A stretch of DNA of 64,000 nt from Lachnospiraceae bacterium. Lineage in GTDB: Bacteria; Bacillota; Clostridia; Lachnospirales; Lachnospiraceae. Positions 17,028 to 57,346 of the stretch are shown here, one piece after another (position 1 is the stretch's first letter; each line of letters starts with the position of its first letter). The stretch spans positions 1 to 64,000 of the forward strand of contig JAFXQX010000039.1 of the NCBI GenBank assembly GCA_017526745.1, written 5' to 3'. The translations under genes and the position numbers were made by a program. The notes beneath the pieces were generated by a model, which saw nothing but the letters and a program-made list of their open reading frames with translations, did no database searches and had not been told where the DNA came from.

Positions 17028-19172
17028 ATGAAAAAAACCTATATTATCGTTGTCAACGTGATCATTATGGTCACTATACTGATCTTCGTTGTTCAATATT
17101 CCGGATATGAAAACAGGATATCTTACCAGAGACAGGTAGAACACTTCAAAGATACAACGGTCACCATGGAACAGGTGACCGAAAATTATCTGCAAAGTGA
17201 GCAGAGGATCTGCGACGTATGGGCGCAGTATATAAACAGCAGTCAAATGACGATGGAAGAGGCGGCTGATTTTATCCGCGCCTTGCATGTTCTGAATAAC
17301 ACTTCTGCACATCTGGTCGACGAAGACACGCTCTGCGGGCTGTCCACGCGTCCGAAACAGGGTACGGCGGACGATTATGAAGTCTCATATGACCGAGTGG
17401 ATCTTCTTGATAACACTGACTGGATCGATGAGATCGGCAGGTCGATCAACATAACCCGTGCTTACACCAATCCGATGAACGGCGAGCAGTCTCTGGCCTT
17501 CTGCAACCGCGTCACGCTGTACGATCCTGAAAAGAAAACGGGCAATCCGTGCGTGCTATTGCGCGTGATCCCCATTTCGGCGCTTGAACAGAAATGGGTA
17601 TTTCCGCAGATAGAACTGGCAAATGCCGGTCTGTCAATGATCGATGCCGACGGTGACTATATCCTCAAAGGATACAGTTTTAAGAACTCCAGTTTTTTCG
17701 AATTCTACAAATCATATAATCAGACTGATCCCGAAACGTCCGGCGAACTGTTCGGAAGGATCACTTCATCGACAGGTAATATTCCGATGACCGACTCACA
17801 CGGGCAGGAGTGCATACTCGCCTTTACACCCATATCGGCCACAGCGGGATGGACATTACTCGGACTTGTTCCGTCGAAGGATCTTATCGTGGATAATGAA
17901 AACTGGATGCTGTTCGGAGTTGTTTTTGTAGGACTGCTCGTACTGTTCTTCTTTGACCTGTTCTATATGCTCAAACTGAACAAGCATCTTCAGATCTCTG
18001 TCCGAGAAGCGGAGTCGGCCAATAAGGCAAAGACCGAGTTTCTTTCCACCATGTCTCACGACATCCGAACCCCGATGAATGCCATCATAGGACTTACGGC
18101 CATTACCGAGAAGAATCTGGATGATACCGAACTGACAGCCCAAAACCTGCGTAAGATCAGTCTTGCCGGCAATCATCTTCTGACCCTTATCAACGATATC
18201 CTGGATATTTCAAAGGTGGAGAGCGGAAAGCTGAAGCTTAGTCCCGCGGCTTTTTCCATTCTTGAAACGGTTGAAAACCTTGAAAGCATTTCCCAGCCGA
18301 TGGTCAAAGAAAAGAATATCGATTTTTCCCTCAATATAGGCCGGATGGAAAAAGAATACCTGTATACGGACCAGCTCCGTTTGAATCAGATATATATCAA
18401 TATCCTTTCAAATGCGATCAAGTACACGCAGCCCGGAGGAATGGTCAGTGTTGATCTTCGCGAGGAGGCAAGCGACCGGCCGGGATGTGTGCGGCTGACC
18501 TACGTTGTATCGGATACGGGTATCGGAATGAGCCCGGAATTTATGTCGGTCATGTATCAGCCCTTCTCTCGTCAGATAGACAGCCGGGTCAACAGCGTTG
18601 TCGGAACCGGCCTCGGGCTTGCCATCACTAAGCAGATGGTGGACCTGCTCGGCGGAACGATAGAATGCCAAAGCCGCCAGGGCGAAGGGACAACGTTTAC
18701 CATCATTCTCGATATCCCTGCAGCCGACAGACAGCGGGATGATATGAGGTTCGATCAGGTCGATGATTCCGAACTGAAGGGCATGCGGATCCTGGTAGCC
18801 GAGGATAACGATATCAACTGGGAGATCATCTCCTACATGCTGGGTACGTTCGGGATAACCACCGACCGTGCGGAAAACGGAAAGGTATGCGTCGATATGA
18901 TAAGTGCCGGGGGCGGGGATGCTTACGACCTGATATTCATGGATGTACAGATGCCCGAGATGAACGGCCTTGACGCAACAAGAGCGATCAGAAAGCTTGA
19001 AGATCCCGTGGCAGCATCCGTCCCGATAGTGGCAATGACGGCAGATGCATTTTCCGAAAATGTTACGGAGTGTCTCAATGCCGGAATGAACGGGCATATA
19101 GCGAAGCCCATAGATGAAAAACTGGTTATAAAGGAGATCCGCAGGATCAGGGAGGAAAAAAGACGATCATGA
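17028..19172 (+). CDS. Hybrid sensor histidine kinase with extracytoplasmic sensor
   Basis: 714 aa. Membrane segments at about 5-26 and 292-314 flank a 265-residue outside domain of Cache-like appearance. HisKA has the H-box STMSHDIRTPMNA (His344), HATPase_c has ILSNAIKYT, DTGIGMSPE and GTGLGLAI, and the C-terminal receiver has AEDNDIN, LIFMDVQMP (Asp639) and the lysine in HIAKPID. No DNA-binding domain. Its stop overlaps the start of a solute-binding lipoprotein gene (ATGA), so the two are translationally coupled. A ligand-loaded binding protein docking on the kinase is a reasonable inference; the downstream phosphoacceptor is unknown. Confidence 0.9.
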   Translation: MKKTYIIVVNVIIMVTILIFVVQYSGYENRISYQRQVEHFKDTTVTMEQVTENYLQSEQRICDVWAQYINSSQMTMEEAADFIRALHVLNNTSAHLVDEDTLCGLSTRPKQGTADDYEVSYDRVDLLDNTDWIDEIGRSINITRAYTNPMNGEQSLAFCNRVTLYDPEKKTGNPCVLLRVIPISALEQKWVFPQIELANAGLSMIDADGDYILKGYSFKNSSFFEFYKSYNQTDPETSGELFGRITSSTGNIPMTDSHGQECILAFTPISATAGWTLLGLVPSKDLIVDNENWMLFGVVFVGLLVLFFFDLFYMLKLNKHLQISVREAESANKAKTEFLSTMSHDIRTPMNAIIGLTAITEKNLDDTELTAQNLRKISLAGNHLLTLINDILDISKVESGKLKLSPAAFSILETVENLESISQPMVKEKNIDFSLNIGRMEKEYLYTDQLRLNQIYINILSNAIKYTQPGGMVSVDLREEASDRPGCVRLTYVVSDTGIGMSPEFMSVMYQPFSRQIDSRVNSVVGTGLGLAITKQMVDLLGGTIECQSRQGEGTTFTIILDIPAADRQRDDMRFDQVDDSELKGMRILVAEDNDINWEIISYMLGTFGITTDRAENGKVCVDMISAGGGDAYDLIFMDVQMPEMNGLDATRAIRKLEDPVAASVPIVAMTADAFSENVTECLNAGMNGHIAKPIDEKLVIKEIRRIREEKRRS

Positions 19173-25165: not shown

Positions 25166-25224
25166 CACTTGTAATCCCTTGTCACCCCGTAACAGCAGAT
25201 CTTTCTTTGGCAGGAGATCATAAA

Positions 25225-25746
25225 ATGTTCAATTCCCCTGATGAGGTTAACCTTCGTCGTTATACGGACAATCTGGCCGGCAGCGGTGCAGCAGTCATAC
25301 TGTTCGGGATCTGGAGCGCAGTCAGGCTTTTTATGCAGATCACCATGGACCGGACTGCATACGAGGATATCATCGAAACTGTGGGTATAACCGACTATAC
25401 CCCTGAGTTCCTTAATCTTGTCATATTCTTTATCCTGTCGTTCTTTGCGTTGAGCATCATGCTGCTTCACCTTTGCGTAGGAGTGGCTGCGATCCGGTAC
25501 AGCAGGGGCAGAAGTGTCAGAAGAACTTACCTGCTGTTTGTTGCCGTTGTTATGATCTTTATGTTTGTGGGGATCCGGGGTAATTTCTTTGACGCAAAGA
25601 CAGATCAGTATGTTTTTAAGATGACCGCATTAGCCACATCGATAGTTGACATCACAATGATATTTGTCCTTTTTGATATCATCTTTTCTTCGATCATGAT
25701 CGGAAAGCTCCGGAAGAATGTCGGACCGGGATTAAGGAGCATATAA
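25225..25746 (+). CDS. Four-helix membrane protein, unknown
   Basis: 173 aa. ATG 25225 has AGGAG upstream; the TTG at 25207 overlaps it. Hydrophobic segments lie at about 20-40, 65-90, 100-120 and 140-165. No family recognised. It ends on the A of the next gene's ATG, so it is coupled to the REC-GGDEF-REC-HD-GYP gene and may be its membrane partner. Confidence 0.65.
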   Translation: MFNSPDEVNLRRYTDNLAGSGAAVILFGIWSAVRLFMQITMDRTAYEDIIETVGITDYTPEFLNLVIFFILSFFALSIMLLHLCVGVAAIRYSRGRSVRRTYLLFVAVVMIFMFVGIRGNFFDAKTDQYVFKMTALATSIVDITMIFVLFDIIFSSIMIGKLRKNVGPGLRSI

Positions 25747-28115
25747 TGGCTTCGTGGATAATAATAGTTGATGACGATGTTACAAACCTCAAAGCGGCGG
25801 GTCAGATCCTTTCCAAAAACAACATGCGTGTTACCACATTGAAGTCGGGAAAGAGCCTGCTTGATTACGTGCGCGAAAAAGGTGCACCCGACCTCATTCT
25901 TCTTGACATCAACATGCCGGGGATGGATGGATTTGAAACGCTTTCCAATTACCGTAAGCTCGAGGAGGAACTGTCCGTACCCGAGACCCCGATCGTCTTT
26001 CTGACGGCTGACGAAGACGGTGCGAATGAGAGCCGCGGTTTTGAGATGGGGGTGAGCGATTACATCAGGAAGCCGTTCGATCCGGATGTTCTCGTACGAC
26101 GTGTAAACAATATCGTTAATACCCGGGGGCAGATGCTCCGCTTTGAAGAAGAGGCGACCATTGACAAGCTCACGGGCTTTCTGAACAAATACAATGCAAA
26201 TGAACAGATCGGAAAACTGTGCGCTTCCAAAGAAGGTGCACTCTTTATCATAGATCTTGATTCTTTCAAACTCGTCAATGATATTTACGGTCATGATATG
26301 GGTGACCGTGTCCTTGCGACATTCTCCGAGATCCTGAAAGCGAATATGGTATTTCCCGCAGTCTTCGGCAGGATAGGCGGAGACGAGTTTCTGATGTTTG
26401 CCGAAAACCTTCATGATGAGAAGGAGATCAGCAAGTATTCCGAAACAATAAACCGCTGTCTGATCATAGAAGCCCGTAAGATGATGGGCGAGGATATGAG
26501 CATACCGCTCGGCGCTTCGATAGGTGTTGTTTTTGCCCCCGATCAGGGCACTGATTTCAACACCCTCTTCAGGCTCGCCGACAAGGCGCTTTATATGATA
26601 AAGAGCAACGGCAAGCACGGCTATTCACTGTATCTTGAAGAAAACGAGGCCAGTCAGGTCCCGACCGATATCAGCCTTGCGATGCTGACCCAGATACTTG
26701 AGGAACGCAATATCCCGCAGAATGCCATGTGGATGGGAAAAGAAGCGTTCGGAAACGTATACCGTTACATGATCCGGTACATGGACAGATACCGCGGAAC
26801 AGCGTATAAGATGCTCTTTACCGCAAAGTTCATTCCGAAGGATCTGTCCGGATCCGAAAAAGAAAGGATCATGTTAAGCCTTCGCGAACTTCTCCAGGAA
26901 TCCTTAAGAAACAGCGATATCATGATGCAGATCGGGGATAACCACTTCTTCCTGATGCTTCCGGAGATAAGCGACTACAATGTCTCGCGTGTGACAGACA
27001 GGGTCATGCATGCCTGGAAGAGCAACCAGTACAGCGGTCTTGTTAAGCTGTCTGTTGAGACTGAGAGCACCGATCCGGAGATGCATGACTATGTTTCGGA
27101 CCGGTCCGATGACGAAAATCATATCATCGTGGTTAACGATGATACCGCTGACCTTGACTTTATGGTCAACAGCCTTCTTGCAAAAGGATATGATGTTACC
27201 GGCGTCTCAGGCGGATCGCAGCTTCTTGAGATGCTTGAAGAGAGCAGGCCGAACCTTATCATCATCAAGGAAGATCTTGAAGGTCTTTCCGGACTTGACA
27301 CGATAGTCAGCATCAGAAAACAGGGCGGCGCGATCCGGAGGATCCCGGTGGTACTTATAGCAAATGACGATCTCGCAGTGGAACAAAGAGGCCTCGAACT
27401 TGGCGTCGTTGATTTTATCCGCATGCCGATATCCAAAGAGAAACTGTTCATCCGCGTCAGTAACATCTTAAGGATGACGATCCTGAAGGATCACATGAAT
27501 CAGGAGGTCGAGAAAAAGACTGAGGAATACGAGCAGCTCGGTATTCATATAATAAAAGCACTTGCGCTTTCGATCGATGCGAAGGACAGATACACAAACG
27601 GCCATTCGAGCCGTGTTGCCGAATACTCCAGGGAGATCGCGGCAAGATGCGGATATGGCGAGCACGAGCAAAATGAGATATATATTGCAGGCCTGTTGCA
27701 CGATGTCGGCAAGATAGGCATACCCGATGCGATCATAAACAAGAAGGACAGACTTACCGACGAGGAATACGACGTCATCAAGAAGCATCCCGTCATCGGT
27801 GCGCAGATACTTGGATCGATAAAGGAGATGCCGAACCTTCCTAACGGTGCAAGATGGCATCATGAAAGATATGACGGAAGCGGTTATCCCGACGGACTTC
27901 GCGGGGATGCCATACCGGAAGTTGCAAGGATCATCGCAGTGGCAGATGCGTATGATGCCATGACGAGCCATAGAAGCTACAGGGATACCCTGCCTCAGGA
28001 CGAGGTAAGGGCAGAACTGAAAAGATGCAGCGGTACCCAGTTCGATCCCGTATTTGCCGACATCATGATCGGCATCATGGATGAGGACAAGGACTACCAG
28101 CTGAGGGAACAGTAA
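25746..28115 (+). CDS. REC-GGDEF-REC-HD-GYP cyclic-di-GMP enzyme
   Basis: 789 aa, soluble. Receiver 1 (about 3-125) has LILLDINMP (Asp54) and DYIRKPFD. GGDEF (about 140-300) has an intact GRIGGDEF (211-215) and ALYMIKSNGK. Residues 310-450 are unassigned. Receiver 2 (about 458-580) is degenerate: the acceptor site reads NLIIIKEDLEG, Lys for Asp. HD-GYP (about 600-780) has LLHDVGKIGIP (His652, Asp653) and HHERYDGSGYPDGL. So the protein could both make and break c-di-GMP under phosphorylation of receiver 1. First of three tightly coupled signalling genes. Confidence 0.92.
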   Translation: MASWIIIVDDDVTNLKAAGQILSKNNMRVTTLKSGKSLLDYVREKGAPDLILLDINMPGMDGFETLSNYRKLEEELSVPETPIVFLTADEDGANESRGFEMGVSDYIRKPFDPDVLVRRVNNIVNTRGQMLRFEEEATIDKLTGFLNKYNANEQIGKLCASKEGALFIIDLDSFKLVNDIYGHDMGDRVLATFSEILKANMVFPAVFGRIGGDEFLMFAENLHDEKEISKYSETINRCLIIEARKMMGEDMSIPLGASIGVVFAPDQGTDFNTLFRLADKALYMIKSNGKHGYSLYLEENEASQVPTDISLAMLTQILEERNIPQNAMWMGKEAFGNVYRYMIRYMDRYRGTAYKMLFTAKFIPKDLSGSEKERIMLSLRELLQESLRNSDIMMQIGDNHFFLMLPEISDYNVSRVTDRVMHAWKSNQYSGLVKLSVETESTDPEMHDYVSDRSDDENHIIVVNDDTADLDFMVNSLLAKGYDVTGVSGGSQLLEMLEESRPNLIIIKEDLEGLSGLDTIVSIRKQGGAIRRIPVVLIANDDLAVEQRGLELGVVDFIRMPISKEKLFIRVSNILRMTILKDHMNQEVEKKTEEYEQLGIHIIKALALSIDAKDRYTNGHSSRVAEYSREIAARCGYGEHEQNEIYIAGLLHDVGKIGIPDAIINKKDRLTDEEYDVIKKHPVIGAQILGSIKEMPNLPNGARWHHERYDGSGYPDGLRGDAIPEVARIIAVADAYDAMTSHRSYRDTLPQDEVRAELKRCSGTQFDPVFADIMIGIMDEDKDYQLREQ

Positions 28116-30689
28116 ATGGCACCGAAACGAAATGACAAACAAAAGATCACAAAGAATGAACTGTTCATATCGTCCCATCTGATGATGATCCTGACATATA
28201 CGATCTTCTCGGTGATACTGATCATCGAGACGTTTGTCATGGACTGGGAGAAATGGGCAGCCCTTCTGATACTTGCAGGAGTCGCAATATCATGGTACAT
28301 ACATTTTTCGCAGATAGGAGATGATATTCTCAGGCTGTGGATATGTTCGATACTAATGATGGCCACGTTCTTTTTCTACGGGACACACGAGACGAGCACA
28401 TTCGATCTGGCCGTCGTGATATGCGTTGTGATGTTCCTGTATACGATGACCGGGATACATTCTCTTGTCACCCTCTGTCAGGTCACGTATTATCTTACCC
28501 TTGCGTATGAACTGTACAACCTTTATACCGGCGGGACGGTGTTCGATCCGCTTCTTGTATCGCGAACGCTCCTTCACATCGCTGTCGTTACGATGACGGG
28601 CTGGATCGCCAGAACGATCATAGATAAATGGCAGGGAGTCCTGGACCAGTCAAGGGAAGAGGTTACCGCGCTTTCCGAGTCGGCTTCGCGTCTTAATGAT
28701 TTTATCGCTAACGTTTCCCATGAGATCAGAACTCCGATAAATGCGATCCTCGGCATATGCAACATGTGCCTGAACGATGAGGAAGATCCGAAAACAAGAA
28801 ACAGCCTCGTTTCCATCGAGAAGGCAGGCAAGAGGATAGGAGAGCAGATAAGCGATATCCTTGATTATTCTGAGATCGACAGGAAGGATCTTGCAAACAA
28901 CTTCGAGGATTTCATGCTCTCATCCGTTCTTAACGATCTTGTAAATGAACTGTCCGTGTATCATAAGAACGGGCTCGAACTCATCATTGACGTTGATGCG
29001 TCCATTCCTTCCGTCATGGAAACTGATGTCGCAAAGCTTAAAAAGATATTGTGGCATCTTATTACAAACGGCATCAAGTTTACAAACGAGGGCGGCGTAT
29101 ATGTACACATCTCATCCATACCGCATGAATACGGCATCAATCTGTGCATGGAGATAAGGGATACCGGGATCGGCATGGATGAAAAACAGCTCGAAAAGAT
29201 CTACGATGACTTCTACAGGGCTGATACAGGGAGAACGAGGAATACCGGAGGTCTCGGCCTGGGCATGATAATCGTCCACGGATTTGTCAGATCTCTGGGC
29301 GGCTTCATGACCGTCGAATCCGAACCCGGCGAGGGGACTACGGTCCGTGTCAGCATTCCCTGCAGGGTAGTTGACAGCGAGAGCTGCATGTCCGTAAGGG
29401 ACAGGGACAGTATCAGTCTCGGTGCATATCTTCATTTCGAAAAGTATTCCAATCCTCACGTCAGGGAATTCTACGATACGATGGTACGAAACATAGTCAC
29501 CGGACTGAAAGTCACGATGCACAGGGTTGACAATACAGAGTCCCTTCGTGCCCTGACCGACAGCAAGAAACTCACGCATCTCTTTGCAGGCCCCGAGGAG
29601 TATCTTAGCGCTTCGGACCTGATGGAGGAGCTTGCAAGATCGATAATAGTTACGGTAGTTGCCGATCCCGGACAGATCATCCTTCCGGCAGGATCCAAAG
29701 TCCGCATAATGTTCAAACCCTTCTACTGTTTCCCCGTTGTCGGCGTGCTCAATTCCAAGATCGGAGAGGCACCGGAGGGTGAAGGGACCGTAACGTTCCC
29801 GGGAGCACGCGTGCTTGTTGTTGATGATGAGCCTATGAACCTGATCGTTTCGTCGCAGATGTTAAGACGTTACGGGATGAACGTTACGACGTGCGAGTCG
29901 GGACAGTCGGCGATCGATCTGTGCCGCTCAAATGATTACGACGTTATACTGATGGATCATATGATGCCGGGTATGGACGGGGTCGAGGCCATGAAGAGGA
30001 TAAGGGCCGACCAGACAAGAGGAAAGGTCCTTGTTCCGATCATTGCTTTTACGGCAAATGCTGTAAGCTCGGCCAAGGAGATGTTCCGTCAGGCGGGATT
30101 TGACGGATTTGTGGGCAAACCCGTTGACAGTGTTGAACTTGAAAGGGTGTTAAAGCGGGTCCTTCCCGCATCTCTTATAGTACTCAGCGATCCCGTAACC
30201 GCAAAAAGGCATATAACAGAGGCAGAAGGGGCCGACGTAAGGTCTGCAGCCGACAGACTTGCTGCGATCGGGGTCGATACCGCAAAGGGACTGTATTACT
30301 GCCAGAATGACAGGAACTTCTATGAAACACTCCTGGCCCAGTATAAAAAAGAATCGGTCCTGAAGAAAAAGATCATGGACGAATCCCTTTTATCGGGAGA
30401 TCTTGCAGCTTATGCGATCCAGGTCCATTCGATAAAGAGTACGTCGAAGATGATCGGCGCGATGGATCTGTCGGAGATCGCACGCGGCCTTGAGACGGCT
30501 GCAAAATCATCGGACAGGGATTATATCGATCAAAATCATGAGACCATGATCACGATGTATGACAGGGTACTGGACGCCATCGGGAAAGATGACGAAGAAC
30601 CGCTGACGGAGAGCGCTGCCGCTGATGATGACGATGACATACTCGAATTCGATCCGGAAGGAGACGATGAGGAAGGAGGCAGTTTATGA
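28116..30689 (+). CDS. Hybrid histidine kinase with receiver and Hpt domains
   Basis: 857 aa. Six hydrophobic segments (about 15-170) form an integral-membrane sensor. HisKA has [12 protein letters not shown] (His202); HATPase has LITNGIKFT, DTGIGMDEK and GGLGLGMI. A linker of about 170 residues looks like a degenerate receiver. The real receiver has LVVDDEPMN and VILMDHMMP (Asp614). Hpt is VHSIKSTSKMIG (His771), then an Asp/Glu-rich tail. Starts directly after the preceding stop and overlaps the next gene by four bases. A complete His-Asp-His relay with no DNA-binding output; partners may be the receivers of the neighbours. Confidence 0.92.
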   Translation: MAPKRNDKQKITKNELFISSHLMMILTYTIFSVILIIETFVMDWEKWAALLILAGVAISWYIHFSQIGDDILRLWICSILMMATFFFYGTHETSTFDLAVVICVVMFLYTMTGIHSLVTLCQVTYYLTLAYELYNLYTGGTVFDPLLVSRTLLHIAVVTMTGWIARTIIDKWQGVLDQSREEVTALSESASRLNDFIANVSHEIRTPINAILGICNMCLNDEEDPKTRNSLVSIEKAGKRIGEQISDILDYSEIDRKDLANNFEDFMLSSVLNDLVNELSVYHKNGLELIIDVDASIPSVMETDVAKLKKILWHLITNGIKFTNEGGVYVHISSIPHEYGINLCMEIRDTGIGMDEKQLEKIYDDFYRADTGRTRNTGGLGLGMIIVHGFVRSLGGFMTVESEPGEGTTVRVSIPCRVVDSESCMSVRDRDSISLGAYLHFEKYSNPHVREFYDTMVRNIVTGLKVTMHRVDNTESLRALTDSKKLTHLFAGPEEYLSASDLMEELARSIIVTVVADPGQIILPAGSKVRIMFKPFYCFPVVGVLNSKIGEAPEGEGTVTFPGARVLVVDDEPMNLIVSSQMLRRYGMNVTTCESGQSAIDLCRSNDYDVILMDHMMPGMDGVEAMKRIRADQTRGKVLVPIIAFTANAVSSAKEMFRQAGFDGFVGKPVDSVELERVLKRVLPASLIVLSDPVTAKRHITEAEGADVRSAADRLAAIGVDTAKGLYYCQNDRNFYETLLAQYKKESVLKKKIMDESLLSGDLAAYAIQVHSIKSTSKMIGAMDLSEIARGLETAAKSSDRDYIDQNHETMITMYDRVLDAIGKDDEEPLTESAAADDDDDILEFDPEGDDEEGGSL

Positions 30690-33430
30690 GTCTTTCCCTC
30701 AGAGAGTTTATAGAGTTTCTTATCCATGAGAAAGGATATGATGCCAACGAGGATAAGATAAACAGGTACATATACGGGTCCACACTCGGCAAGATGCGCA
30801 TGATAGCTCTCGGAGTGGCGATCTTTGAGATCATTGCGCTGATCGTAAGCTTTACTCCCAAGCATCTTGGTGCCGCATATCTTACAGAGTACAGATGGGT
30901 GTATGGTTCGGTCCTTCTTGTCATGCTCTTCGGACTGGCACTTTTTGCGTATGTCAGGCATGACATTGACAGAAGATACAGATCACTTATGTGGATCATG
31001 CCGGTCACTTCACTTCTCGTACAGCTGTGGGCCGTCGCGGCGATGTGCGTGAACGCTTATGCGCTCGGCTTTGCCAATCCGAGCCTTTATATCGCATCGG
31101 CGCTTCTCATCCCGGTATGCACATATATGCATCCCCTGGCATATATTGCCGTTGCCGTTCTCTCGGATACCGCGATGCTTGTCGTATACAGCAGGCTCAG
31201 GGAAGTGATCACCGCTCCTTCTCCTATGCCGGTCGTTATCGCAACGATCCTTCTGATCAAGACGGTGTTCACACTGATGATGTATTTCCTTCAGTTCACG
31301 CTTCGTGCCAAAACGATCACGTTCGAAGAGCAGAAGAAGGAGATCAGCGATCTGAACAACGCCCAGAACAGATTTTTCTCAAGCATGAGTCATGAGATAA
31401 GGACGCCTATCAACACGATCATAGGTCTTAATGAGATGATACTGCGCGAGAAGGTAAGCGATGAGGTCGCCGAGGATGCAGCCAATATCCGTGCCGCCAG
31501 CAACATGCTCCTGCACCTTATAAACGATATACTCGACATGTCCAAGATCTCATCCGGACAGATGAGGCTGACACCGGCTGCTTACCGCCCGGGCGACATG
31601 CTCTCCGAGATAGTCGGCATGCTGTGGCTGAGGTGCCGGGAAAAGGGCCTTGATTTTCACATCCAGGTAGCCCCCGATATCCCATCGGAACTGTACGGCG
31701 ATGAGGTCAGGATCAAACAGATACTCATAAATGTTTTGAATAATGCGATCAAATACACAGAGAAAGGTTCGGTAACGCTTGCGATCCAGTGTAACGGTAT
31801 CACAGACGGCATTGCCGATATCGTGTATTCCGTGACGGACACTGGAAAGGGTATCAGGAAAGAAAGCATACCCCATCTGTTCACTGCTTTCAGACGCGTT
31901 GACGAGACCGAGAACCGCTACATAGAGGGTACCGGCCTTGGCCTGTCGATAGTTAAAGAGCTTACGGAACTTATGGGCGGACACGTCAGCGTGAACAGTG
32001 TTTATACCCAGGGATCGACTTTTGTCATCGAGATCCCCCAGACCGTAACCGATTTTGAAAAGATCGGGAACATCAATCTCGAGGAGAAGCATAAGGCAAA
32101 TCTTTCGGGAGATTATAAATGCAGTTTTGAAGCCCCCGATGCGAATGTGCTCGTTGTTGATGACAATGAATCAAACCTTCTTGTAGTCAGGAAACTCCTT
32201 CGTGCGACCAAGGTAAAGCTTGATACCGCCATAAGCGGTGCCACTGCCCTGGACAGGACACTGGAGAATTCTTACGATGTCATTTTCATGGATCATCTCA
32301 TGCCCGAGATGGACGGGATCGAATGCCTTCACAGAATAAAGGAACAGGTAGGCGGAAGATCGAAGGGATCCAAGTTCATCGCCCTTACCGCCAATGCCGG
32401 GAGCGAGATGAGAAAGCTGTATGCGGATGAGGGATTCGACGGATATCTCGTAAAACCCGTCAATACCCGGGAACTTGAAAGTGAACTTGCCCGCCTTCTT
32501 CCGGGCGACCTAGTAAGATCGACAGGTGAAAATGAAGACATACTGGAAAACAGTACTTCATGGATAGATGCCCGCACCAAGAAGAAACCGATAGTAATCA
32601 CAACAGAGAGCGTTGCGGATATTCCGGCATCGCTTCTGGAAGAGTACGGTATTGATGTGATACCTCATAAAGTCGAGACGGAGGATGGGGTGTTCCTCGA
32701 CGGAGTTGAGATCGATTCGGGCGGACTGCTCGAGTATATGAGAGATGAGAACAAAGTCTCCACTCATCCGCCTTCGGTTTCCGAACACGAGGAATTCTTT
32801 GCCCGGGCCTTATCCGGAGCCCATAATGTGATACATGTAACGATATCGTCCAAAGTACGTCACAGCGGATATGAAGGCTCTGTTGAAGGCGCGGCTGCAT
32901 TTAACAATGTCACCGTATTTGATTCGCACCTTCTGTCGAGCGGGCAGGGCATACTGGCTATTGAAGCGTGCCGTCTCGCCTCCACGGGTGTATCTGTCGG
33001 AGAGATATTAAACCGGCTGGCTTATATCCGTAAATACATCCAGACAAGCTTTATTGTTGACAATATCGATTATCTTGCGAGAAACGGACAGATAAGCGCA
33101 AGACTTGCCGGGGTGGCGAAGTCTATCATGTTCCATCCCGTGATCGATATGAAGAACGGAAAGATGAAGATGTACAGGTTCTATTTCGGGTCGAGGCAGC
33201 GGGCGTGGATCCGGTATATCAATTCGACGCTTGCCAGGGTGACTGATATAGACAGGAGCGAACTGTTCATAACATATGTGGGTCTTTCCCAGAATGACCT
33301 TGATCATATTAAGAATATCGTGGAAAGGAAGATCGTATTCGAACACATTTATTTCCAGAAGGCATCTCCTGCGATAGCCGTCAACTCCGGCCCCGGAACA
33401 TTCGGCCTTCTGTTCAAGTACAGGATGTGA
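30686..33430 (+). CDS. Hybrid histidine kinase fused to a DegV fatty-acid-binding domain
   Basis: 914 aa. Membrane segments at about 35-190; HisKA with [13 protein letters not shown] (His236); HATPase with VLNNAIKYT, DTGKGIRKE and GTGLGLSI; receiver with LVVDDNESN and VIFMDHLMP (Asp536). From residue 634 to the end lies a full DegV/FakB-like domain: IVITTESVADIPASLLEEYG, FDSHLLSSGQGILAIEA, TSFIVDNIDYLARNGQIS, and NSGPGTFGLLF at the C-terminus. The family's TSQPS appears as THPPS, and the SGTY loop is altered. DegV proteins bind long-chain fatty acids and present them to a FakA kinase. Fusion to a kinase-receiver is not something I know as standard. It overlaps the previous gene by four bases and shows no frameshift, so it is a genuine single protein. 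Confidence 0.92.
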   Translation: MSLSLREFIEFLIHEKGYDANEDKINRYIYGSTLGKMRMIALGVAIFEIIALIVSFTPKHLGAAYLTEYRWVYGSVLLVMLFGLALFAYVRHDIDRRYRSLMWIMPVTSLLVQLWAVAAMCVNAYALGFANPSLYIASALLIPVCTYMHPLAYIAVAVLSDTAMLVVYSRLREVITAPSPMPVVIATILLIKTVFTLMMYFLQFTLRAKTITFEEQKKEISDLNNAQNRFFSSMSHEIRTPINTIIGLNEMILREKVSDEVAEDAANIRAASNMLLHLINDILDMSKISSGQMRLTPAAYRPGDMLSEIVGMLWLRCREKGLDFHIQVAPDIPSELYGDEVRIKQILINVLNNAIKYTEKGSVTLAIQCNGITDGIADIVYSVTDTGKGIRKESIPHLFTAFRRVDETENRYIEGTGLGLSIVKELTELMGGHVSVNSVYTQGSTFVIEIPQTVTDFEKIGNINLEEKHKANLSGDYKCSFEAPDANVLVVDDNESNLLVVRKLLRATKVKLDTAISGATALDRTLENSYDVIFMDHLMPEMDGIECLHRIKEQVGGRSKGSKFIALTANAGSEMRKLYADEGFDGYLVKPVNTRELESELARLLPGDLVRSTGENEDILENSTSWIDARTKKKPIVITTESVADIPASLLEEYGIDVIPHKVETEDGVFLDGVEIDSGGLLEYMRDENKVSTHPPSVSEHEEFFARALSGAHNVIHVTISSKVRHSGYEGSVEGAAAFNNVTVFDSHLLSSGQGILAIEACRLASTGVSVGEILNRLAYIRKYIQTSFIVDNIDYLARNGQISARLAGVAKSIMFHPVIDMKNGKMKMYRFYFGSRQRAWIRYINSTLARVTDIDRSELFITYVGLSQNDLDHIKNIVERKIVFEHIYFQKASPAIAVNSGPGTFGLLFKYRM

Positions 33431-40825: not shown

Positions 40826-42667
40826 GTGTACAACATAGCATTCTTTCTTGGAGAATTACAACTTGATTCGCAGCGTAAAGTTCTTGAAGGCATAGTCGAA
40901 GCCGCGAAGAAGGACGGTAACAATATCATCGTCTACTGCCTGACACTGTCCACCGATGAAGAGTTCAACATCGGTGAATCATCGGCGATGCTGTACGATG
41001 ATTTTGGTCAGTATGACGGCTTTATCATCTATGCCGAGAGTATATATTCCGCTGCTATCAGGACCAAGGTCGTTTCCAAGATCATGGAGCAGCACAAACC
41101 TGTTGCTTCCATCGACTGCCCGCTTCCGGGCATGATCAATGTTTCAAGTGATAACGAGACTGCGATGCAGATTCTTTCAAAGCATCTGATCAATGAGCAT
41201 AATATCAGGACCGTTAATTTCATAAGCGGTCCGGAAGACTCGCTCGACTCCGTAACCAGGAAGCGTGTGTTCGAGATGGAGATGGTCAGGAAGGGATTGA
41301 AGCTTGAAAAGGAAAGATGCTTTACCGGCGATTATTATGCAAGAAGCGGCAGGGCGGCCGTGGCATATTTCGAGAGCAAGGGTCTTCTTGAGGCCGATGC
41401 ATATGTATGTGCCAACGACCAGATGGCACTCGGTGCATTCTATGCGCTTACGGACAGGGGCATAAAGATCCCGGAAGATACCATACTGTCGGGATATGAC
41501 AATATATTTGAAGCGGCCAATCACTATCCGAGGATCACGACGGTCAACCGTTTTGAGAAAAAGCTCGGTGAGGCGGCGTACAAAAACGTGATATTTGCGA
41601 TCGAAGGAAAGGATTACGATAAAAATCCCGTGATCGACTCTCAGCCCGTATATGCCGAAAGCTGCGGCTGCTCGGCAGTACGTCCCGTGAATCACCGTAT
41701 TGTCGTCAACCAGTATTCCAGAAGCAAACTGCGTGAAGCACGATACTCAGAGATGATCAGTGAACTGACAGTCGAGCTTACGAACGCACAGACTGCGGAA
41801 GACATATGCAATGCCTTAAAGCCCAGGCTTCCGGAACTTGGCGGAGATGCATTCTGCCTTCTCATAAGCGATGATGAGAATTCAAGTTTCGAATCCGGAG
41901 TAAATGTGGTCGCCGGGATCAATTACTATAACGGCAGGTTCGGTGCGGTCTCCAAAGAGTATATAAGGGAACATCATCCGAGGTTTGACAATAAGGTCGG
42001 GGGACATCTGTACATAATCGATTCGATCCATTACAGGGAGAAGTTTTACGGTATCGCGATCATAAGGGATTCAAACATGCCGTTCTTTTCCGAGTTCTAC
42101 AGGGTTCTGATCATGACGCTGTCAAGTGCGCTTGAAAGGGTCAGAAACGTCAGGACGATGCAGAAGATGATCAAGACACTTGATGAGATGTGGGTGTTCG
42201 ATCCGATGACTCATGTATATAACCGCGCGGGATTTTTCAAGTTCTCGGAAGAGATATTGCAGAAGGCGAGACAGGAGAAGGAGGACATGTTCTTTATCTT
42301 CCTCGATCTCGACGGACTCAAGATCGTTAACGATGAATATGGTCACGAGATGGGAGACCGGATGATATGCGATATGGCCGATGTGCTGCGTAAGCTACGT
42401 AACCGCGGGGAACTCCTGATGCGCTATGGCGGCGATGAATTTGTCGTGTTCGGAAAAGGACGGACAGGATCCGAAGTGGAAGAGGATATAGTCAGGATCC
42501 GCAAGGCAATGAAGGAATTAAACGACAGCGGAGACAGGATCTACAAACTGGATGCGAGCATCGGCTATAACATGGTGCCGTATGACAACGAAAAACCCCT
42601 GTCGTCGCTTATCGAACTGGCTGATCAGGAAATGTACAAGGAAAAGAGAGAAAAACACAAGAGGTGA
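40826..42667 (+). CDS. LacI-type ligand-binding domain fused to GGDEF
   Basis: 613 aa. GTG 40826 has TTGGAGA upstream. Residues 1-285 are a periplasmic-binding-protein-1-like sensor as in LacI/GalR regulators (GFIIYAESIYS, NVSSDNETAMQILSKHLINE, ADAYVCANDQMALGAFYALT, ILSGYDNI), but there is no helix-turn-helix and no signal peptide or membrane segment, so it is a cytoplasmic sensor. A middle region (about 300-450) is GAF-like by position. GGDEF follows: MTHVYNRAGFFKFSEE, LDLDGLKIVNDEYGH, RYGGDEFVVFG (535-539), so the diguanylate cyclase is probably active. Sugar-controlled c-di-GMP synthesis is inferred. Confidence 0.9.
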   Translation: MYNIAFFLGELQLDSQRKVLEGIVEAAKKDGNNIIVYCLTLSTDEEFNIGESSAMLYDDFGQYDGFIIYAESIYSAAIRTKVVSKIMEQHKPVASIDCPLPGMINVSSDNETAMQILSKHLINEHNIRTVNFISGPEDSLDSVTRKRVFEMEMVRKGLKLEKERCFTGDYYARSGRAAVAYFESKGLLEADAYVCANDQMALGAFYALTDRGIKIPEDTILSGYDNIFEAANHYPRITTVNRFEKKLGEAAYKNVIFAIEGKDYDKNPVIDSQPVYAESCGCSAVRPVNHRIVVNQYSRSKLREARYSEMISELTVELTNAQTAEDICNALKPRLPELGGDAFCLLISDDENSSFESGVNVVAGINYYNGRFGAVSKEYIREHHPRFDNKVGGHLYIIDSIHYREKFYGIAIIRDSNMPFFSEFYRVLIMTLSSALERVRNVRTMQKMIKTLDEMWVFDPMTHVYNRAGFFKFSEEILQKARQEKEDMFFIFLDLDGLKIVNDEYGHEMGDRMICDMADVLRKLRNRGELLMRYGGDEFVVFGKGRTGSEVEEDIVRIRKAMKELNDSGDRIYKLDASIGYNMVPYDNEKPLSSLIELADQEMYKEKREKHKR

Positions 42668-43430: not shown

Positions 43431-44291
43431 ATGAGCGATTATGTGATCATGTCGGATACCGGCAGTGATATCGAGTTTGAGACACTTCGCGAGTGGGGCG
43501 TCGGTTTCCGCGGACTTACTTTTCATTTTGAGGACGGTATAGAATATCGTGAAGGCGACATGCCGATGAGCGAGTTCTACTCGAGGATGCGTGCCGGTGA
43601 AGTCAGCAAAACGAGCGCAGTCAATTCGCAGAGCTTTAAGGAACTGTTCGAGGAAGCGTTAAAAGACGGAAAGGACATCCTCTATATCGGTTTCTCGTCC
43701 GGTATCTCCGCAACATCGAACTCCGCGATGATGGCGGCAAACGAGCTGAGGGAAGAATATCCCGACAGGAAGATCATAGCCATAGATACGCTTTCCGCAT
43801 CAGCGGGTGAAGGCCTCGTGCTTCACCTTGCGGTCGAAAAGAAAAAAGCAGGCGCCGACATAGATGAGAATGCAAAATACATAAGGGATCTTCTTATGAA
43901 TGTGGCGCACTGGTTCACGGTCGAAGATCTCGTTTATTTAAAAAGAGGCGGAAGAGTCAGCGCAGCCGCTGCCTTTGCGGGCGGAGTGCTCGGCATCAAG
44001 CCCGTGCTTCATGTTGATAACGAAGGCAAGCTGATCAATATGAAGAAGGTTCGCGGAAGGACCCAGTCACTTAAAGAGATAGCCAGGAAATACATGGAGA
44101 CGGCACTTGATCCGAAGGGCACGTATTACATTTCCCATGGGGACTGTCTTGAGGATGCGAAGGCGCTTGAGAGTATGATAATGGCTGAGGGAGGAACTTC
44201 CTGCGAGCTGATCACGCAGATCGGAATGGTAATAGGTTCCCACGCGGGCCCCGGAACGATCGCACTTTTCTTCCTTGCAAAGGAAAGATGA
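43431..44291 (+). CDS. DegV family fatty-acid-binding protein
   Basis: 286 aa, usual length. All DegV marks are present: MSDTGSDIEFETLREWGVGF at the start, VSKTSAVNSQSF, IGFSSGISATSNSA, DTLSASAGEGLVLHLA, VEDLVYLKRGGRVSAAAA and SHAGPGTIALFF. Such proteins (FakB type) bind fatty acids for phosphorylation by FakA. TGGAGGAATT precedes ATG 43431. It is more canonical than the DegV domain fused to the kinase at 30686. No fakA-like gene is in the window. Confidence 0.93.
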   Translation: MSDYVIMSDTGSDIEFETLREWGVGFRGLTFHFEDGIEYREGDMPMSEFYSRMRAGEVSKTSAVNSQSFKELFEEALKDGKDILYIGFSSGISATSNSAMMAANELREEYPDRKIIAIDTLSASAGEGLVLHLAVEKKKAGADIDENAKYIRDLLMNVAHWFTVEDLVYLKRGGRVSAAAAFAGGVLGIKPVLHVDNEGKLINMKKVRGRTQSLKEIARKYMETALDPKGTYYISHGDCLEDAKALESMIMAEGGTSCELITQIGMVIGSHAGPGTIALFFLAKER

Positions 44292-50096: not shown

Positions 50097-50179
50097 TAAA
50101 AAACGGGCCATATTATTTATTTTTTTACCTTATTGCATTATATTAATCTGTGTGGTCACAAACGGGAGGACGGGTCAAG

Positions 50180-52327
50180 GTGAAGACGAAATTCCACGGC
50201 TTTTCAGGCATCAACGACATAAACAGGACAAACCGCGCTGTCATGATCCTGGCGGGTATCCTTGTCAATGTCTTGCTTTCATTTGTCATGGACAGGCTGG
50301 GGATGCCGCTCTTTCTCGATACCGTCGGTACCATTGCCGTTGCGGCACTCGGGGGATACTTCCCCGGTATATTCACGGCTGTTGCAACGAATGTGATATG
50401 CACCTTCTTTAATAACAATGCCATCTATTTTTCGGCGATCAATGCCCTTATCGCGATCTTTACTTCATGGTTTGTGAAAAGATACAACCTTAAGAAGCCG
50501 GGTGTGATCGTTGCTTTCGTACTGAGCATTGCCTTTTCTGCCGCCCTTCTTTCGACGGTTCTCCAGCTGGGCGTTTTTTCCGGAGCTTACCATCCGGTCC
50601 TGAATCAGATGTCGCATTCACTTTCAGTTGCGACATCGCTTCCACGATATCTGGCATTCTTTCTGGCCAATTTCCTTCTCAATCTTCTTGATAAAGGCCT
50701 TGCAACAGCTCTGATGCTGCTGCTCGTACAGTTCATTCCGCAAAGGATCCTCAAGGGCATAGAACGGGGCGGATGGATGCAGCGTCCGCTCTCCGAAAGC
50801 GAGATCGCTGCCATGAAGGAATGGAGCAGGGATGTCAGGACAAGCGTGCGTACCAAGACCGCAGTCACACTCGTGTTCACAGCCCTTATGATCATCATCG
50901 CGATGTCATGGATAAGCGTTAAGCTTTATTTTGACAACGTCAAGGAAGAAAAGACGAGAAATGCGGAAAATGCGGCCAAGTTTGTTGCCGATATCATTGA
51001 CCCCGATAAGATCGATGATTTTCTCCGGGAGGGCCGTGCCGCGGAAGGATATAAAGAGACCGAGGACATGATGTACAAGATAAGGAACAATGCATCCGGA
51101 GTCGAGTATCTGTATGTGATAAGGATAGAAGAGGACGGCTGCAGGTTCATATTTGATCTGTCATCATGGGATGTGGAGGCAAATGAACCCGGAACACTCG
51201 TTCCTTTTGAGGAGGCGTTCATGCCGTATCTCCCCGATCTGTTTGCGGGACGTTCCATAGATCCCATCGAATCAAACGATGTGAGCGGATGGGTACTTAC
51301 GGTATATTCTCCGGTAAGGGATGAGAGGGGACACTGCCTGGCCTATGTCGGTGCCGATGTTTCCCTTGTATATATGGCCGATTACATGAGTGAGTTCATT
51401 CTCAAAGTGCTCCTTATCGCACTCGGATTTTTCATGGTGATCATATCATATGCGATCTGGTCTACCGGCGTATACACGTCGTATCCGATAAGCAGCATCG
51501 CATCCTGCGTTGACCGTTTTGCCGCAACCGGAGATGATCAGGAAAAACTGGATGCCGATGTGCGCATGATCCGTGCCCTTGACATCCATACCGGAGATGA
51601 GGTCGAAAAACTCTACCATGCTATCTGCCGGATGACGGTCGATCAGGCTGACAGGATCAGGGATTTAAGACGTCTTTCCGATTCTACCGTCAAGATGCAG
51701 GACGGGCTCATAGTCACGATGGCAGACATGGTCGAGAGCCGGGACTCCGATACCGGAGCCCATGTACAGAAGACATCGGCATATGTCAGGATAATCGTGG
51801 AAGGACTCAGGGACAAAGGGTACTATGCGGAAAAGATCACTCCGAAGTTCATTTCGGATGTCGTAAGATCCGCCCCGCTTCATGACGTCGGCAAGATCAA
51901 TATTTCCGACAAGATACTCAATAAGCCCGGCAAGCTAGATGATGACGAATATGAGATCATGAAGACTCATACGACTGCCGGCAAGAAGATCATGGAGAAT
52001 GCTATCAGTACCGTAAAAGGCGAGAACTATCTGAAGGAAGCAAGGAACATGGCGGCATACCATCATGAGAGATGGGACGGCAAAGGTTATCCCGAAGGCC
52101 TGCATGGCGAGGTGATACCCCTGTCGGCCCGTATCATGGCTGTTGCCGATGTATTTGATGCATTGGCATCGCCGCGTGTGTACAAGCCCGCATTTCCGCT
52201 TGAAAAAGCCCTTGCGATACTTGAAGAGGGCGCCGGAACACAGTTCGATCCGAAGTGTGTGGAAGTGTTCATGGACTCGCTCGATGAGGTTAAGATCATT
52301 CTGAAGAAATACAATCAGACTGTATAG
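50180..52327 (+). CDS. HD-GYP phosphodiesterase with membrane sensor regions
   Basis: 715 aa. GTG 50180 has GGGAGGA at 50164-50170; the frame starts earlier at 50150 without a ribosome site. N-terminal residues 20-200 hold six membrane segments resembling an ECF-S-like/MASE sensor ([19 protein letters not shown]). A seventh segment (about 235-255) leads to an outside Cache-like domain with [19 protein letters not shown], then an eighth (about 410-435). HD-GYP follows with [14 protein letters not shown] (His568, Asp569), [14 protein letters not shown] and [14 protein letters not shown], so c-di-GMP hydrolysis is likely. Stop is 11 bases before the propeller kinase. Confidence 0.9.
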
Positions 52328-52338
52328 ACGGAGATGAG

Positions 52339-55300
52339 ATGACTGGTTATAAGATCGTAAAGGCAGCCGCCCTGGCTGCAGTAATATCCGGTTTGACGCT
52401 GCTTGTTCCGGTGACGGCACATGCAGACGGTGATGCGCGCCCCGGAGGCGGATATGCCGCAACCGGCCAGATCGGGGATGTCGGATATTCGGAAACGATA
52501 TACGATGCAACGAACGGCCTTCCGACATCGGATGCAAATTATATTATGGCTTCATCGGACGGCCACATCTGGATCGGAGGCTACAGCGGAATCATACGTT
52601 ATGACGGTACTTCGTTTGAAAGACTCGATCCTTCGGAGGGCCTTACGAGCGGCCGGGTCATCTTTGAGGACAGCCTTAACAGGATATGGGTCGGGACCAA
52701 TGATAACGGAGCGGTAGTGATTGACAAAAACACTTCAAGGCACTATACGTTCAGGGACGGTCTTGCCTCATCGAGTGTGCGGTCATTTGCGGAAGATCCC
52801 GACGGTAACATATTCATGGGTACGACTGCGGGGGTTGCGTATGTCGACAATAACATGAAGCTTAACGTTTTATATGACGACAGGATAGCCGATGAAGTCA
52901 TACAAAAGCTTGAGACCGACGCTTCCGGGACCATATACGGCATTACCAGGACGGGCAAGATGTTCACTATCGACAGATTTGAGGTGTCTTCATTTTACGA
53001 AAGCCCGGATCTGGGGTTAGAACATGTTTCCACATTTATGACTGACCCCGTAAACGGCGGCATCGTCTATCTGTGCACGGATGAAGACGTGATATATCAC
53101 GGAAGTTTGGGCAGCAGTCTTGGCGAGATGGAAAAGATCAAAGTGGCATCCATGTCAGGGATCCGTTGGATCAGTTATGACTGCGGACGGATATGGCTTG
53201 CATCGGCACAGATGATCGGTTATCTGACTGCGGATGATCATTTCCATCTGCTCGATAACCTTCCCATGGACAGTGCGATCGAGATGATGACATCGGACTA
53301 TCAGGGCAATATGTGGTTTGCATCATCCACCCAGGGCGTGATGAAGATCGCGACCAATAATTTTGTTGATATAAACGACAAATACGGTATTCCGAATGAA
53401 GTAACGAATGCAACCTGTCTTCATAACGACAGACTGTACATAGGAACAGACAACGGACTGTTCATACTGGACAGGGAAGAAGGTGCGATAACCGACAGAC
53501 TGACCGAGTATCTTGAAGGTACAAGGATCAGATGCATTATGGAAGATCCCGAAGGCAATCTGTGGATCTCGACATATACGAATGATCTGGGACTTGTGTT
53601 CCAGGGCCCGGAAGGCGTTATAGAGACCTTTACAAAAGAAAACGGAATGCCTGACGACCAGATCAGATGCACGGCGATGGCGGCGGACGGATCCGTACTT
53701 GCAGGGACTAACGGCGGTCTTGCGATAATAAAGGACAAAAAGGTCATCCGCACCGTCGGCGATAAGGAAGGCATGAAGAACACGGTGCTCCTTACCGTAT
53801 GTGAGGGTGACAACAATAAGATATACGCCGGAACAGACGGTGACGGCATATATATCATCGACGAATCGGGCGGCGGGGTCAAACGCATCGGACGCGAGGA
53901 CGGACTGACAAGCGATGTCATACTGCGTATCAAGAAGGACGAGGAAAGGGGTGTGTATTATGTGATCACATCCAATTCCATAGAATACATCAGGAACGAT
54001 ACCGTTAAGGAAGTTTCGACATTTCCTTACAACAACAATTATGATATCTACGCCGATGACAACGGACTGTTATGGATACTGTCTTCCTACGGCATATATA
54101 ACGTCAGCGCACAGGATATCATTGATGATAACGTTAGTCAGTACAGGATATATACGATCGCAAACGGACTTACGTGCACGGCGACAAGCAATTCTTACAG
54201 TGCGCTTGATGACCGGAAGAATCTGTATATTTCCGGACGTGAAGGAGTCAGCCGCGTAAACATAGACCATTTCTATTCGGACAGTGCGGAGATAAAAACT
54301 TCGGTCAATTCGATATACTGCGATGACACACGTATCCTGCCGGATGAGCGCGGAGTATATACGATACCGCCTTTTGACGGACGTATTAAGATCACCGCTT
54401 CCGTCATGGACTATACGATGAAGGATCCGATGGTAAGAGTCTACCTCGAAGGCAGTGATGATGCAGGTATCACGGCAAAGAGGAGCGAACTGACTTCACT
54501 TGAATACACCGGACTGTCATACGGTAATTACACCCTTCACATTCAGGTGCTCGATGATGACAGGAGTACAGTCCTTCTGGATAACAGGTTTTCGATCGTC
54601 AAGGAACCGAGGATCACGGAGCTTGTGATATTCCGGCTCATGATCGTCATGCTGCTCGTTCTGGCAGCGGGCCTTATCGTTTGGCGTGTCATGAAATCTA
54701 CGGTCATCCGCAGACAGTATGACGAGATACGTCAGGCGAAGGATGAGGCGGAACGGGCCAACTCGGCCAAGTCTAGATTCCTTGCGAATATGTCTCATGA
54801 GATTAGGACTCCCATCAACACGATAATGGGTATGGACGAGATGATCCTGAGGGAGGATGCCAAGGAAGTTCCCAAGGGATACTATATGTCTGTCATCAAC
54901 TATGCTCTCGATATAAGAAACGCATCCGAATCGCTTCTGGGACTGATAAACGATCTTCTTGATATGTCCAAGATCGAATCAGGGAAGATGCATCTTGTAG
55001 AGCAGGAATATGATGTATGCGAACTGCTGCGCTCGATAGTTTCCATGATCAGGGTAAGAAGTACCGAAAAGGAACTCGCGTTTGACGTTGTCGTGGATGA
55101 GATCATGCCGGTGCGGCTGTATGGTGATGCCCAGAAGATTAGGCAGATCGTGTTGAACCTTCTTACCAATGCGGTAAAGTATACCGATGTCGGAGGATTT
55201 TCACTGAATGTGACCGTGGCCGAGAGAACGGATGACAGGTGTGTCATCAGGTTTGGCGTTATGGACACCGGGATCGGGATCAAGAGCGAGGACATGGATA

Positions 55301-57336: not shown

Positions 57337-57346
57337 GGAGTGGATA

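Follow-up and report, generated by a model that had tools for sequence, protein, structure and literature searches.

What does a DegV domain, the fold of the FakB proteins, do at the end of a histidine kinase? This question is raised by a gene at positions 30686-33430 of a 64,000-nucleotide stretch of DNA (the window), which comprises positions 1 to 64,000 of contig JAFXQX010000039.1 in the Lachnospiraceae bacterium assembly GCA_017526745.1. DegV/FakB proteins are carriers for phospholipid synthesis. According to PMC12288450, DegV can also be one domain within multidomain proteins. The comparisons described below suggest that the domain encoded here is probably a FakB-derived ligand sensor, belonging to a phosphorelay in which two kinases share one histidine phosphotransfer (Hpt) domain, an arrangement analogous to RpfC/RpfG combined with LadS/GacS.

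A hybrid histidine kinase that ends in a DegV domain

The gene is a single uninterrupted frame that starts with ATG and contains no internal stop. The encoded protein comprises, in this order, membrane segments, HisKA, HATPase, a receiver and DegV. The initial annotation had read this layout, with His236 and Asp536 as the phosphorylation sites, from the letters alone, and the open reading frame (ORF), Pfam, NCBIfam and the alignment all agree with it. The features of the gene are as follows.

30686..33430, forward strand: DegV hybrid kinase, 914 residues (ORF, Pfam, NCBIfam).
30785..31303, forward strand: membrane segments, residues 34-206 (hydropathy; the full-length model has helices here, at low confidence).
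31361..31558, forward strand: HisKA, with His236 in SHEIRTP (Pfam, alignment).
31697..32044, forward strand: HATPase_c (Pfam; N and G2 boxes).
32147..32485, forward strand: receiver, with Asp536 (Pfam, alignment).
32591..33415, forward strand: DegV (EDD/FakB fold) domain, residues 636-910; R170, R202 and H266 of FakB2 are replaced by Q, F and N, and T61 is retained.

Pfam assigns HisKA to residues 226-291 (E 3.8e-18), HATPase_c to residues 338-453 (E 1.6e-27) and Response_reg to residues 488-600 (E 6.8e-21). The DegV family PF02645 matches residues 636-910 with an E-value of 2.1e-45 and 155.6 bits, the cut-off being 27, and covers positions 2-277 of the 280 in the profile, while TIGR00762 (DegV, NCBIfam) scores 167.5 bits against a cut-off of 99.7. 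Seven hydrophobic windows lie across residues 34-206; two pairs of them overlap, corresponding to five to seven membrane segments. In the full-length structural model, the soluble domains are predicted with confidence, and the linker at residues 614-631 has a predicted local distance difference test score (pLDDT) below 50. A full-length alignment of 33 family proteins shows no variation at His236, Asp492, Asp493, Asp536 and Lys590. Thus, the window protein possesses the phospho-acceptor His, the ATPase boxes and the receiver Asp and Lys of a hybrid histidine kinase.

The fusion is a recurrent family

The source genome contains seven DegV domains; four are stand-alone, with one such gene at 43431-44291 of the window, and three are fused. 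The two other fusions (L160 and L159), which the initial annotation did not include, carry a C-terminal Hpt after the DegV domain. A profile built from the three fused domains was searched over 150 genomes of the same family. It identified at least 41 DegV frames of 786-1170 residues in at least 28 genomes, none with an internal stop, among matches down to about 6e-25, so that weaker fusions may be missing. The HisKA-HATPase-REC-DegV architecture is found in 39 of the 41 listed frames, from 27 genomes and including the window gene (the canonical fusions of the family set); the other two, L190 and L191, are of another type. Neighborhoods were read for the 38 other frames of this list and for the two other fusions of the source genome.

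A named genome collection was then queried with 11 of 30 family members, yielding 477 related stretches, of which the best 80 loci were examined (the genome-collection set). Their record titles include Lachnospiraceae, Roseburia, Acetatifactor, Oscillibacter, Pseudoflavonifractor and others, and among them are the isolates Schaedlerella arabinosiphila DSM 106076, Oscillibacter sp. 1-3 and Lachnospiraceae V9D3004. These loci hold 83 DegV frames: 80 show the canonical domain order, two lack HisKA and one has its kinase in a separate open piece. Class-wide, frames longer than 700 residues occur in at least 9 of 391 genomes, with families f1 and f45 among the matches listed; these reach down to about 6e-40, and weaker fusions may be missing. 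The family and genome-collection sets overlap, with 119 distinct DegV sequences among 124 frames, and the 119 take in the two frames of the other type as well as three truncated frames. The genomes are related and not independent, many being metagenome bins, and p values are to be read as indicative.

The catalytic residues are conserved throughout these sets. All 119 fused frames of at least 650 residues with a HisKA match possess the phospho-acceptor His motif together with the N and G2 boxes. Equivalents of Asp492, Asp493, Asp536 and Lys590 are present by alignment in all 122 fused frames with a receiver match; a regular-expression motif scan of 119 frames overlooks the Asp of 6 and the Lys of 15, all of which the alignment recovers.

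Because the same domain order recurs across many assemblies, named isolates included, the fusion represents a family and not an accident. The initial annotation had pointed to a stop between receiver and DegV in many genomes as the sign of an artificial joint; in the genome-collection set, the receiver and the DegV domain share one frame in 83 of 83 cases. An assembly error or chance fusion is thus of negligible probability. A few relatives (L111, L140, L146 and L201) are indeed interrupted or truncated inside the kinase part, with receiver and DegV still in one frame, but the 39 unbroken canonical fusions and the 83 joined frames rule out a fusion made by assembly or annotation.

The DegV domain retains the fold and has lost FakA-docking residues

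PF02645 extends along the whole domain, placing it in the DegV/EDD family with the DegV/FakB fold retained. For residue comparison, 37 stand-alone frames from 36 loci served as controls (30 from one search and 6 others). One of these, L033, is linked to a partner kinase of the type described below and counts for the sensor reading.

One group of changes concerns the residues by which FakB docks. At R202, which mediates docking to FakA and the membrane, Arg is present in 1 of 119 fused domains versus 35 of 37 stand-alone domains (35 of 36 without L033), and the window protein has Phe. Lys at position 200 is found in none of the 119 fused domains versus 31 of 37 controls, and the basic positions 185, 200 and 205 are mostly lost in the fused DegVs. 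The equivalent of R202 in FakB1, R205, is reportedly key for FakA and membrane binding. R170, whose FakB1 equivalent Arg173 is reported to be essential for the FakA reaction, is Arg in 84 of 119 fused and all 37 stand-alone domains; the window protein has Gln. Judged from its residues, the window DegV is a member of the DegV-fold family that lacks two tested features of a FakA-dependent FakB, namely Arg202/205 and Arg170/173. Continued feeding of FakA, in which the kinase-receiver part would control fatty acid loading or place a FakB at the membrane for phospholipid synthesis, is therefore very unlikely. The retained fold, the Arg170 kept in most fused domains and a FakA-like DAK2 protein of 584 residues encoded elsewhere in the genome would suit such a role. 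However, 118 of 119 fused domains have lost the docking Arg, and most of the basic positions have gone with it; in addition, the window protein has no Arg at R170, and the genome has four stand-alone DegVs besides.

The ligand site is altered as well. Position 61 is Ser or Thr in 110 of 119 fused domains and Thr in the window, and position 93 is Ser or Thr in 91 of 119. In the window protein, Arg occupies the S93 column and a Ser follows two positions later; the loop is one residue longer there. H266 is replaced by Asn in 113 of 119 fused domains, the window included. Across 69 columns that are hydrophobic in ordinary DegVs, the fused domains are on average 89% hydrophobic. A ligand other than a fatty acid, such as another carboxylate, an isoprenoid or a lipid head group, bound through altered head-group recognition, is a rather unlikely explanation of these changes: the replacement of H266 and the varied S93 and R170 positions would agree with it, whereas the hydroxyl at position 61 and the hydrophobic columns fit a buried chain with an acid end, a fit that is tempered by the six columns that fall below 50%. 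A changed specificity had initially been proposed from the loop motifs THPPS and HSGYEG. Both motifs occur in the DegV part, but the argument from them is weak, as the Thr of THPPS aligns with FakB Thr61; the telling changes are those at R202, H266, 185 and 200.

Two free DegVs that are linked to a partner kinase show the same changes at 200, 202 and 266 as the fused domains, and the nearest ordinary relatives, L001 and L038, keep the FakB residues. In the trees, the deepest relevant node has a support of 0.375, and a second tree gives 0.277 for the fused domains with both free DegVs and 0.844 for the fused domains alone.

The DegV domain accompanies a dedicated partner kinase

The real unit is larger than a single gene. 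The fusion belongs to a conserved operon that also encodes a partner kinase, which the initial annotation had not described.

28116..30689, forward strand: partner hybrid kinase, 857 residues, with about five hydrophobic segments, HisKA 193-255, HATPase 304-416, REC 566-678 and Hpt 740-819 (Pfam, hydropathy).
29364..29810, forward strand: partner-specific insert, residues 417-565, ending in KPFY (no Pfam match in the window protein).
30333..30572, forward strand: Hpt of the partner, the sole Hpt found in the window kinase pair (PF01627, 28.0 bits against a cut-off of 24.6).
30686..30689, forward strand: ATGA overlap of 4 bp between the partner stop and the start of the DegV kinase (gene coordinates).

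The ATGA overlap suggests translational coupling of the partner and the DegV kinase, and the same type of spacing is found in 42 of 78 pairs of the genome-collection set and 13 of 39 of the family set. The partner is a distinct subfamily of hybrid kinases. Between HATPase and receiver, 106 of 107 partners contain 140-159 extra residues. Of 24 other hybrid kinases from these loci, 23 have 10-39 extra residues there, and the partner-type insert occurs in only one. Across 36 sequences, the insert has invariant E, P and L and nearly invariant R, Y, H, Y and K, and it is not detectably a receiver by hhalign (probability 0.2). This insert of about 145 residues is a marker of the module.

A profile of the insert (A6) was searched over the same 150 genomes, and rows with an E-value of at most 1e-20 were taken as strong; the window partner scores 9.6e-52. 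The partner rule that follows rests on these strong rows. The 40 strong partners, from 28 genomes, are followed by a fused DegV kinase in 36 cases and by a free DegV in two, and two run off the contig. Accordingly, a DegV lies next door in all 38 strong partner loci whose downstream neighbor is intact. The two free DegVs, L204 (302 residues) and L205 (283 residues), overlap the partner gene. By genome, partner and fusion occur together in 26 of the 150, the partner only in 2, the fusion only in 2 and neither in 120 (Fisher p 1.5e-24, indicative given the kinship of the genomes). The partner-only genomes are G134, where the partner runs off the contig, and G044; the fusion-only genomes are G011, at a contig edge, and G103, with a fusion of the other type. 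These findings suggest, at the level of gene content and residues, that DegV and partner kinase function together and that the DegV is not baggage of the fusion, the free DegVs being the strongest single evidence.

In the genome-collection set, 5 of 83 frames lack a receiver-bearing neighbor within 400 nucleotides (L118, L111, L106, L140 and L146). L118 and L111 lie at contig ends, and L106 has a broken-looking gap to its partner.

Nearly every kinase pair of the family set has one Hpt

The Hpt is distributed in a regular manner. In 38 of the 39 canonical fusions of the family set, exactly one Hpt is present in the pair or the next gene: it is in the partner only in 30 cases (the partners of L163 and L168 being cut or broken), in the fusion only in seven and in both in none. 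In L184, a separate Hpt gene lies immediately downstream, and L169 is at a contig edge with no partner visible. In the genome-collection set, no Hpt lies on any of the 83 fusions themselves, and the upstream neighbor carries one in 72 of 83 frames. The neighbor has a receiver and no Hpt in six frames, two of which (L107 and L123) adjoin a duplicate of the fusion. An Hpt at a distance of two genes is seen in L080, in L108 and for the second DegV gene of L129, and the first pair of L129 has an extra Hpt gene downstream. The pair therefore shows the gene content of LadS/GacS, with one Hpt for two hybrid kinases.

This content could also reflect control of the RetS type, in which the DegV kinase would heterodimerize with the partner and block or tune its autophosphorylation, the DegV gating the contact, with no transfer to the Hpt. 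Given the modes described in PMC4866733, an Hpt-less hybrid kinase beside an Hpt-bearing one fits RetS/GacS as well as LadS/GacS. Moreover, the two partner-linked DegVs without a second kinase imply that a DegV can operate without its own phosphorelay. Conversely, the conserved His236, N and G2 boxes, Asp536 and Lys590 make the second kinase look active, and one Hpt per pair, the seven swaps included, is expected for a shared relay, although the swaps may represent few events. Because the catalytic residues are conserved and the Hpt swaps sides, the relay is favored and heterodimer control appears doubtful, if a serious alternative; the two modes are not told apart by these data.

The probable regulator upstream of the pair

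A candidate response regulator ends directly before the partner gene.

25746..28115, forward strand: candidate response regulator, 789 residues, with REC 5-120, GGDEF 137-290, a second receiver-like stretch and HD-GYP 610-768 (Pfam, motifs).

This protein is the probable response regulator of the module. GGDEF, HD and GYP motifs are all present in it, and its HD-GYP part has 5z7c, 4mcw and 4r8z as nearest PDB entries. The preceding ORF of 179 residues (25207-25746) has no Pfam match. The gene immediately preceding the partner encodes REC-HD-GYP in 41 of 78 pairs of the genome-collection set and 8 of 39 of the family set; other pairs are preceded by a lone receiver or by REC-GGDEF forms, and in the f45 genomes (L202 and L203) the same kinase pair lies behind a REC-GGDEF-REC gene.

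The initial annotation had inferred a lipid theme from nearby genes. This neighborhood is not shared: a phmmer search (E at most 1e-5; some loci short or duplicates) found relatives of the acyltransferase, the patatin and the diacylglycerol kinase (DAGK) of the window in 0, 0 and 1 of the other 120 loci, respectively. The recurring neighbors are instead the partner hybrid kinase and cyclic di-GMP (c-di-GMP), receiver or chemotaxis genes.

Proposed mechanism and its weaknesses

Two roles had initially been considered for the domain, a fatty-acid sensor that gates the kinase, or a protein whose fatty-acid loading the kinase-receiver part controls. The latter is disfavored by the near-universal loss of the docking Arg. 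A sensor-type role is favored because the fold and most of the carboxylate hydroxyls are kept, FakA-docking residues are lost and the DegV stands beside one kinase subfamily even when free. We propose that the DegV domain, a FakB-type carrier no longer serving FakA, would report bound lipid to the kinase. The ligand would most likely be a free fatty acid drawn from the inner leaflet of the membrane, and the loaded state would change the DegV kinase. Phosphate would pass from His236 to Asp536 within this kinase, which lacks an Hpt of its own and would give phosphate to, or draw it from, the Hpt of the upstream partner. The partner Hpt would in turn phosphorylate the receiver of the REC-GGDEF-HD-GYP regulator, which would alter c-di-GMP or a related nucleotide.

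Several observations weigh against this mechanism. In the window protein, Arg at the S93 column and Gln at R170 make the carboxylate site less FakB-like than the family average, and position 61 is Ala in six and another non-hydroxyl residue in three of the 119 fused domains. The deepest relevant tree node is weak. A predicted template modeling score (pTM) of 0.41 for the full-length model leaves the contacts of DegV with the receiver or kinase unreadable. A distant relative of the partner (L208, in genome G066) has no DegV next door; L140 and L146, whose kinase parts are truncated, stand without a partner; and in L201 (G236) the fusion is interrupted, the Hpt of the partner is weak and a further Hpt gene follows. 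Many pairs have no adjoining HD-GYP gene, and the profiles found no regulator before the partner in 21 of 78 pairs of the genome-collection set and 19 of 39 of the family set. Seven pairs (L188, L189, L192, L193, L194, L196 and L197) lie behind CheA-like, CheW and MCP genes, as called by Pfam on L188 and by gene size and order only in the other six; the output of this subclade may be chemotaxis rather than c-di-GMP. Outputs thus differ between clades. In addition, the closest solved HD-GYP structure, 5z7c, is a phosphodiesterase of 3'3'-cGAMP and not of c-di-GMP, and the regulator also contains a GGDEF domain, so that the output may be of either sign and may concern a nucleotide other than c-di-GMP.

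Further genes and other DegV fusions

In 28 of 124 cases, the DegV kinase is followed within 600 nucleotides, on the same strand, by a relative of family 3 solute-binding proteins, for example L082 8077-8907 (+) and L089 9882-10685 (+); this protein may provide an extracellular input. The window is rich in signaling genes in general. Five of them, at 40826-42667, 50150-52327, 57308-59707, 52339-56553 and 17028-19172, comprise a periplasmic-binding-like protein with GGDEF, two HD-GYP-type proteins (HD_5), a hybrid kinase with a propeller sensor and an Hpt, and one further hybrid kinase.

In L190 (6751-9360, +) and L191 (6790-9375, +), the DegV follows a kinase-like protein that the HisKA and receiver profiles do not match and whose middle part weakly matches the partner insert profile. 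No second kinase lies beside these two fusions, and the next two genes in L190 encode GGDEF domains. Two shorter DegV fusions were classified by eye. L199 (617-2398, +; 594 residues) has a FakA/DAK2-like N-terminal half and is perhaps a natural FakA-FakB fusion, and L200 (660-2327, +; 556 residues) has a HAD-phosphatase-like N-terminal half.

Significance

Searches of the openly licensed PMC literature, judged by titles and opening lines of abstracts, brought up no paper on a DegV-kinase fusion or module, and a search for RpfC/RpfG together with Lachnospiraceae gave only Rpf papers. The parts themselves, namely hybrid kinases, Hpt, HD-GYP and DegV, are known; the kind of sensor and its fixed partner in a phosphorelay appear to be new. 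To our knowledge, few histidine kinases have a defined fatty-acid receptor. If the mechanism holds, a carrier would have been recruited as a sensor, and host, dietary or membrane fatty acids would have a testable link to c-di-GMP in Lachnospiraceae. It would also give a common function to a family possibly of hundreds of proteins, given 477 related stretches with the best 80 examined. The shared-Hpt pattern provides natural swaps for studying how a histidine phosphotransfer domain is shared within a phosphorelay. More broadly, and only as a tentative suggestion, a FakB carrier may have become an intracellular lipid receptor obligately paired with a dedicated kinase subfamily, so that a two-kinase, one-Hpt relay sets c-di-GMP, or chemotaxis in a subclade, in Lachnospiraceae and related Clostridia, by a route unrelated to the receptors for diffusible signal factor (DSF) of Proteobacteria.

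Comparison with known systems

Compared with FakB1 and FakB2 (PF02645), the DegV described here is fused to a hybrid kinase or overlaps its gene, and it has lost the docking Arg and most of the basic patch. Asn replaces His266, and in the window protein Gln replaces the catalytic Arg170.

The RpfC/RpfG system of Xanthomonas, which serves quorum sensing with DSF and has an adjacent gene for the DSF synthase RpfF, resembles the other half of the module. As described in PMC5391125, the fatty acid DSF binds to RpfC at a sensor of 22 residues at the N-terminus and activates the kinase. RpfC has five membrane segments, and its REC and Hpt relay the signal to RpfG, a regulator of the HD-GYP type (PMC4504480). 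Similarly, an HK-REC-Hpt kinase (28116-30689) and a REC-HD-GYP regulator (25746-28115, with GGDEF besides) lie here in one operon; the number of hydrophobic segments in the partner is close to that of RpfC, and the signal may likewise be a fatty acid. In contrast to RpfC/RpfG, there are two kinases and not one, the proposed lipid binder is a cytosolic DegV instead of the short N-terminal sensor, the partner contains an extra insert and the host belongs to the Clostridia.

The genes of LadS, RetS and GacS are separate and their sensors face outward, whereas the genes here are adjacent, the Hpt can lie on either protein and the DegV is inside the cell. According to PMC4866733, the hybrid kinase LadS uses the Hpt of GacS in an H1-D1-H2-D2 relay, and RetS blocks GacS by forming a heterodimer. 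As with LadS/GacS in Pseudomonas, a hybrid kinase without Hpt stands here beside a second kinase that bears one, and its shared use is predicted by analogy. The RpfC/RpfG and LadS/GacS precedents make each half of the proposed mechanism plausible.

A further parallel comes from DhaQ, a co-activator paralogue of DhaK that has the same superfamily fold as DegV (2iu4, 2iu6). DhaQ binds dihydroxyacetone and has a transcription factor as its target, in a system that, unlike the present one, involves no histidine kinase. It nevertheless represents a substrate-binding subunit of a small-molecule kinase that has turned into a signaling subunit.

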